Source of the DNA: an uncultured Clostridia bacterium
Lineage (GTDB): Bacteria; Bacillota; Clostridia; Christensenellales; Borkfalkiaceae
DNA length: 64,000 bases
Assembly (NCBI GenBank): GCA_930990665.1
Contig: CAKNQN010000007.1
Span: 27,660 to 91,659, forward strand
Direction of reading: 5' to 3'
The notes beneath the pieces were generated by a model. That model did no database searches. It was not told the DNA's origin and saw nothing but the letters and a program-made list of their open reading frames with translations. Shown here piece after piece: positions 56,702-57,322 of this stretch. Both the position numbers and the translations under genes were made by a program. Every line of letters starts with the position of its first letter. Position 1 is the first letter of the stretch.

Positions 56702-57236
56702 TTCACGAATTTTTGTGAAAAGGGTTCACAAAAATTCCGTGATTTTCAGGAAAAACCCAACGTTCGCCGACCTGCGTCGGCTCTGCGTTCGGTTTTTCCT
56801 CTGCCGCGTTATTTTAAGTGGCTCTCCATTATAGAAAACGCGGCATTCACCTTTTCCGCCAGAGGCGCTGCCGCGCAAATCGGGGGCTTTTTCCGAAAAG
56901 TGTGATTTTCGGAAACGCGAGTGATTGTTTTGGGGGGACGGGGCAACGCCCCATAATGGCAAAATAAATGTGCGCGAGGGCGGCAGGGCAGAGCCATAAA
57001 GCAATTTCGCGCCCTTTATCAGCCTAAAATCGCAAAATTATGCGAACAGCAAAATTTGTCAAGTATAACTGCCAAAAAAGAATATGGCAGGAATCGATAA
57101 AAACCGCCAAAACGGGAGTTATAATAAATTTGACGGGAAACGGTCAGAACGCGGAGCGTTCGGAACGGTTCACGGAAAATTTATTATAAACCATTATAAC
57201 TCCCTCGGCAAAAAATTTTTCACGAAATTTCGTGAA
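56702..57236. other. Noncoding element rich in inverted repeats splitting grpE from dnaK
   Basis: At least six independent inverted repeats (56702-56742, 56749-56799, 56803-56844, 56890-56915, 57114-57204, 57219-57236). Confidence 0.6.
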
Positions 57237-57322
57237 CACTAAAATCGTTGTTATCGGCGAAAGCCGTAAACAAAATAAAAAAATTCGGTAATATCTTTTA
57301 CCTGAAAAAGGAGTGATATATT

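Follow-up and report, generated by a model that had tools for sequence, protein, structure and literature searches.

The window analysed here is a stretch of 64,000 nucleotides from an uncultured Clostridia bacterium of the family Borkfalkiaceae, and it includes an hrcA-grpE-dnaK operon. On the forward strand, grpE occupies 56135–56701 and dnaK 57323–59119 (both as open reading frames, the former with homologues in 38 of the 40 genus genomes), and a CIRCE operator with one mismatch is found upstream of hrcA at 55014–55040 on the same strand (0.02 expected by chance). In about ten species the gap between grpE and dnaK measures 84–110 bp, which represents the empty site; in the window it is filled by an element of about 56702–57240, followed at 57249–57322 by a separate dnaK leader that is recognisable in relatives with and without the insertion. 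The original prediction had placed a structured element of roughly 530–620 bp in 56702–57322; the element itself is real, and all the inverted repeats that had been named were recovered, each no more than a few bases from its predicted position, whilst the last part of the interval belongs to the leader. Folded as single-stranded DNA, 56700–57240 reaches −124.5 kcal/mol, compared with −78.2 ± 4.9 for dinucleotide shuffles (z −9.4). In the leader a short GC hairpin (CGGC..GCCG) precedes an A-rich stretch, a weak hairpin is often seen just ahead of the Shine–Dalgarno sequence, and covariation in the GC stem is visible by eye.

The first part of the element is a repeating unit of five hairpins (the A unit; 56702–56921, forward strand, as are the parts that follow), which starts 0 nt past the grpE stop codon TAA. 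Copies of this unit are about 220 nt in length (range 175–230 nt). The outer hairpin, P1 (56702–56742), faces the neighbouring gene, is supported by its pairs and their compensations, and has, close to its base, a conserved extrahelical pyrimidine (C at 56738; this column reads C in 89, T in 45 and G in 2 of 145 copies). P2 (56748–56800; helices 3–5) has a purine-rich 5′ arm, AGGAAAAACC, and a pyrimidine-rich 3′ arm, such that GGAAAAACC (56749–56757) pairs with GGTTTTTCC (56791–56799), with GCCGAC/GTCGGC inside. P3 (56802–56845) comprises a 9-bp covarying stem and a conserved loop containing GGGC; its arms are GCCGCGTT (56803–56810) and AACGCGGC (56837–56844), 97.6% of its cells are paired and two-sided changes are seen in 9/9 pairs. 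Beyond P3 lie the strand CCTTTT (56850–56855), predicted from parallel covariation to run parallel in the P2 major groove, the small hairpin P4 (helix 7; approximate boundaries 56862–56880, 91% of cells paired) and P5 (helix 9; 56890–56915), in which TTTCCGAAAA (56890–56899) pairs with TTTTCGGAAA (56906–56915) below a conserved AAAAGYGYGRTTTT top. In other families AAAAGTGTGATTTT or AAAAGCGTGGTTTT is retained in P5 (loci L178 and L179), and the P5 motif AAAAGYGTGRTTTT is kept in two matches from other families. The extrahelical pyrimidine of P1 was also seen to covary with a neighbouring base pair, being C where that pair is A-T and T where it is G-C (window positions 56705, 56738 and 56740). 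In L043 (1920–2229) and L046 (2049–2368), both from the same genome as the window, an extra hairpin-rich insertion (GTAATATCGAGGCAAGCC...) is found at one and the same position close to P4, as though one repeat were nested in another.

The covariation that had been proposed as a check on the element is overwhelming. An alignment of 47 copies (A1) gave the covariance model R1, with 46 pairs over 221 positions, which scores the A unit of the window at 196 bits (E 2e-61), this sequence being itself among those from which the model was built. In A1, 91.8% of cells pair, compared with 69.5% in shuffles and 39–51% when the partner is slid. Alignment of 145 copies (144 distinct) by the model gave A3, in which 94.0% of cells are paired, both-side changes occur in 42 of the 46 pairs, and double-changed cells number 1477 against 440 when shuffled; as these counts include related sequences and this second alignment was fitted to the model, they are not probabilities, and the structural argument is made from effect size and the slide controls. 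The same covariation is found in copies from outside the genus (92.2% paired).

A mutual-information scan showed that the purine-rich 5′ arm of P2 is coupled in parallel with the single strand after P3, and that this strand has a mirror-type identity coupling with the 3′ arm of P2. The rule that describes the coupling is that C stands opposite G of the arm and T opposite A, parallel and in register, and it is obeyed in 590 of 658 cells, compared with 454.7 ± 9.2 across 2000 shuffles (maximum 487); other registers of the third strand reach 30–62%, and when each distinct combination is counted once the rule holds in 224/264 (177.7 ± 5.4). Classes of arm and third strand include AGGAAAA/ACCTTTT, AGGGCGA/ACCCTCT, AGAGACA/ACTCTTT and AGGGGAA/ACCCCTT. 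Outside the genus, 22 units with six readable positions give 105/121 against 89.1 ± 3.8, and shorter arms there also obey the rule (GAGG with CTCC, GGAG with CCTC). In the window, the third strand at 56850–56855 is set against GGAAAA of P2 (56749–56754) in six consecutive predicted triples. T.A-T and C+.G-C Hoogsteen triples require parallel pyrimidine-to-purine coupling, and we know of no other reason for parallel coupling of such a kind. The geometry is also compatible, as the third strand enters the base of P2 via a TTCA linker. From this parallel G-to-C and A-to-T covariation, which holds outside the genus as well, the units appear to fold with an intramolecular pyrimidine-motif triple helix. 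Covarying third strands are rare in natural sequences; here dozens of copies, from several bacterial families, carry the evolutionary trace of the predicted triple helix.

The rest of the element is formed by module B (56933–57236, forward strand), the tail-to-tail centre, several further copies of which are present in genome G035. In L052 and L055 two opposed units have module B between their tails; in L051, L053, L058 and the window the module comes after the tail of a unit. It includes B2 (57114–57204, forward strand), a palindromic hairpin in which the left arm GGGAGTTATAATAAATTT (57114–57131) has two competing right arms (57177–57189 and 57193–57204); B2 is also dispersed alone, with a copy lacking the rest of B at G000:C2:106536-106697 and further matches in G003 and G028. 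At the right end is a perfect 18-bp palindrome (57219–57236, reverse strand), which makes an inverted-repeat pair with the first stem as a remnant of an inverted P1. The original prediction noted a common TTCACGAA core in the first and last repeats, as if they bounded an inserted unit, and indeed the two are 89–90% identical over 18–20 nt, and L051 has a full inverted P1 where the window has the palindrome. The second unit of the window is reduced to its outer 18-bp palindrome, with module B filling the centre. At L059 (2024–2444) in G035, an A unit interrupts a B module in its hairpin loop with about 10 bp replaced; this junction is a possible recent insertion or recombination.

The element was also predicted to be worth searching for in other copies and at empty sites, and it proves to be multi-copy. 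The gap sequence recurs at 12 further places in its own genome, and DNA similarity detects it in 31 of 36 relatives from the genus, in a few of them via the dnaK leader alone. R1 identifies 26 places in the genome of the window (74% complete) and 77 in a 95%-complete relative, with matches in 37/40 genus genomes, whilst G002, G005 and G062 are free of the element; in an order-wide sample of 297 genomes, 25 genomes from 8 of 125 genera have matches, other families included. A pattern scan of named genomes located the family in Candidatus Borkfalkia, for example in B. stercoripullorum and B. avistercoris. Across three genomes, the copy most closely related to a unit is found within the same genome for 61 of 84 units, and within-genome copying is therefore common. 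There is no match to the gap at the Rfam gathering score, nor anything at E ≤ 1 in ten element-bearing loci, which excludes the suggested OLE, HEARO, ROOL and GOLLD RNAs together with all other Rfam families, and no description of the family was found in Rfam or in the open-licence papers searched. An origin in phage was rejected, as phage records gave no match. As had been suspected for this candidate, it appears to be a previously undescribed, dispersed and structured multi-copy repeat family of Candidatus Borkfalkia, with divergent members elsewhere in the order.

The units obey a positional rule. The outer end of units reads (G)TTCACG or GGCTCGCG, and when the P1 end of 152 units was compared with the surrounding genes, a sense stop codon was found within 40 nt in 61 (typically at 0–8), an antisense gene start or its Shine–Dalgarno complement nearby in 35, and another unit alongside in 26. 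Amongst single copies beside a stop, with genes defined by a codon-score gene caller, P1 is ≤12 nt away in 26/34 compared with 0/16 for tails (p 2e-7); the median distance from P1 to the stop is 4 nt, and tails stand 130–190 nt from stops. Single copies lie at stops rather than starts by 34 to 15, such that the sense orientation after stops is favoured. Neighbouring units are arranged tail-to-tail in 29 cases, in tandem in 27 and head-to-head in 0 (p 4e-9), with the tail-to-tail gap peaking at 14–22 bp. At grpE, an A-type unit lies directly 3′ of the stop codon in 10 of the 30 loci fetched (the window and one truncated copy included). The same unit is kept there by sister species only (G009/G061, 96%; G003/G018, 86% over the core), and beyond these the closest copies sit at other sites, so that the grpE site has been filled repeatedly and purely vertical inheritance at grpE is rejected. 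The grpE-dnaK gap of G030 (L080, 736 bp) holds other repeats, namely CATGAGATCCCTCG.CAGGCTCGGGATGAC and TACACTCTACATTC copies.

It had been proposed that the element is an attenuator that decouples dnaK from HrcA control. This does not agree with its distribution: many sister species lack it between grpE and dnaK, and copies accompany dozens of unrelated genes. A single CIRCE is moreover still present in the operon, upstream of hrcA. We see no link between the element and control by HrcA, and in the dnaK leader (57249–57322) RNAalifold finds no consensus structure.

In RNA stems that are rich in Watson–Crick pairs, G.T should persist and A.C should be lost. At variable pairs with a Watson–Crick majority, the repeat has 54 G.T and 80 A.C, compared with 62 and 6 in the RNase P RNA of this genus (p 7e-13); in its best-aligned helices, P1 and P3, the figures are 27 and 19 (p 6e-5). 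Likewise, the G.T share is 1.5% in repeat alignment A2 and 7.4% in tRNAs from the same loci. These tRNAs and RNase P served as controls, an FMN riboswitch having been dropped because its stems are too invariant to be informative. The result depends on the choice of helices, since the pair set that RNAalifold itself chose on A1 has 17 G.T and 4 A.C, and the wobble test is therefore supportive and not decisive. Together with the inverted pairing and the antisense copies, the wobble counts favour the view that what is conserved is a folded strand of DNA.

The family, its structure, the parallel covariation, the rule of placement and the repeated filling of the grpE stop site are computational results. 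The reading that we consider probable is that the gap holds one member of a novel family of dispersed, structured repeats between genes, arranged in tail-to-tail pairs, that spread as DNA much as REP/REPIN sequences do. Each unit would combine five hairpins with a third strand held against hairpin 2 in a triple helix of the pyrimidine motif, and in a full element two units would be joined at their tails, each with hairpin 1 on the outside. An enzyme may recognise one strand that has folded while single-stranded during replication or transposition, and insertions would survive where hairpin 1 comes to rest immediately after a stop codon; there the unit would act as a tight 3′ structure that leaves the leader of the next gene (here dnaK) intact. 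Placed after grpE, such a structure could alter the level of grpE or dnaK. If a folded master copy is selected for spread, the covariation would be explained without a role for each copy. More tentatively, and at a little under even chances in our estimate, there may be an order-wide and deeply conserved architecture of five hairpins and a triplex that spreads through genomes and settles exactly behind stop codons, either as a novel type of DNA element, which an enzyme would move as a folded single strand, or as a novel class of triple-helix mRNA 3′ end.

A mobilising gene was not found amongst the candidates checked, namely Y1, IS110 and recurrent neighbour genes. Genes for Y1 transposases are present in 25 of the 40 genomes but missing from several element-rich ones, such as G026, G028 and G001, and no unit lies within about 1.5 kb of the 20 Y1 genes examined; IS110 (PF02371) is present in 6/40 genomes, and both Y1/RAYT and IS110 fail as movers on distribution and linkage. 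By eye, the list of open reading frames has no transposase-like frame in the gap, which together with the failed Y1 and IS110 association speaks against a remnant of a known insertion sequence (IS200/IS605 or IS110). No gene recurs beside units save for housekeeping orthologues such as hrcA, grpE, dnaK, hslU and prfB, and no recombinase was recognised from the translation of the gene between outward-facing units in G016. Inspection of the ends of three full pairs (L113, L117 and L151) revealed no target-site duplication, and no clean recent insertion was seen.

These observations bear on the earlier proposal of a MITE-like insertion, of which the insertion-like character, the related inverted ends and the multiple copies stand, and the expected duplication and mover were not seen. 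A family of classical MITEs, mobilised in trans by a DDE transposase and bearing hairpin 1 as terminal inverted repeat, would account for related hairpins at both ends and for intergenic, multi-copy elements with empty sites; we regard it as improbable, as the inner stems covary in a way that MITEs do not need, the three loci inspected have no visible target-site duplication, and no transposase or transposon with P1 ends was found in the loci examined. It is more improbable still that the covariation arose without selection, through template-switch correction at replication that keeps the arms of decayed repeats identical. Such correction would fit the near absence of both G.T and A.C and the frequent replacement of whole stems, but it should have removed the extrahelical base of P1, which persists (pyrimidine in 134/136), and a parallel third strand could not be copied by hairpin template switching, so that the third-strand covariation weakens this explanation.

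The other part of the earlier proposal, a large structured RNA, survives in the form of a new RNA class, which we consider unlikely though clearly less so than the two preceding explanations. A new class of triple-helix 3′ UTR, copied around the genome and kept for its function in RNA, would end or protect the mRNA of the upstream gene. Triple helices are well known in RNA, and single units favour the sense orientation close behind stops. Amongst the few stop-adjacent genes sampled from a sister genus, hslU and prfB carry a unit in Borkfalkia too, and E. coli REPs ≤15 nt from a stop codon are reported to stall ribosomes (as cited in PMC12306157). Against this, G.U is no commoner than A.C in the repeat, unlike in RNase P RNA, the partner unit of each pair is antisense to any co-directional gene, and many units adjoin antisense gene starts.

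Compared with known systems, the family is closest in behaviour to REP/BIME/REPIN sequences (GTAG and CGTC superfamilies), which are likewise intergenic, multi-copy, palindromic and near gene 3′ ends, with inverted pairs, short spacers, clusters and compensatory hairpin changes. REPs have been described near the 3′ ends of flanking genes and in inverted pairs (PMC3733652), and compensatory changes in the hairpins of REPINs (PMC3116915). However, REP/REPIN sequences are 20–40 nt with one 5–13 bp stem, whereas the Borkfalkia unit has five hairpins in 175–230 nt; no GTAG/CGTC tag is found beside the stem in aligned copies of the unit; and the linkage to RAYT (Y1) is lacking around the 20 Y1 genes examined. 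Membership therefore fails on size, tag and transposase, whilst placement and inverted pairs do match. The tail-to-tail and never head-to-head pairs, the predicted triple helix and the scarcity of G.T pairing are further differences. TMECO (PIT motifs) are bacterial intrastrand triplex repeats with a 37-nt G/C-rich motif, which are also intergenic, repeated, predicted to form a triplex from one strand and sometimes found in inverted pairs (PMC4666352). Their CCCTCNCCC-type consensus is absent from the triplex strands of the unit (GGAAAA/TTTTCC/CCTTTT and variants), in which the third strand consists of pyrimidines, runs parallel, is attached on the far side of another hairpin, belongs to a unit of five hairpins and is supported by covariation. 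The BOX elements of pneumococcus are modular, dispersed and folded between genes, as excerpted from PMC3049150; they belong to an unrelated order and have other modules, boxA/B/C being absent from the unit, and that excerpt describes no triple helix for BOX. ENE-type RNA triple helices (MALAT1, retrotransposon RNAs) also pair a third strand to a hairpin and are in some cases in mobile elements (PMC12501189), but they are built from U-rich loops and either a poly(A) tail or an A-rich tract, whereas the unit would use an internal hairpin duplex and a covarying C/T third strand.

With this family one can test whether triplexes formed within a strand are of consequence in living bacteria, and by what route large structured repeats disperse when no transposase can be recognised. 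The family also accounts for the break in the hrcA-grpE-dnaK operon of an abundant gut lineage, and is a warning that such gaps are not local regulators. Elsewhere in the window, degenerate or weak matches to the unit occur at 21907–22058 (37 bits) and 59246–59387 (reverse strand; 26 bits), the latter between dnaK and dnaJ. An FMN riboswitch at 14538–14656 (105 bits) is the sole Rfam match of the window and is present once per genome in 39/40 genus genomes, and 52717–52872 is a tandem array of about ten 15-bp units of AAAGACTGCTGGCGC.
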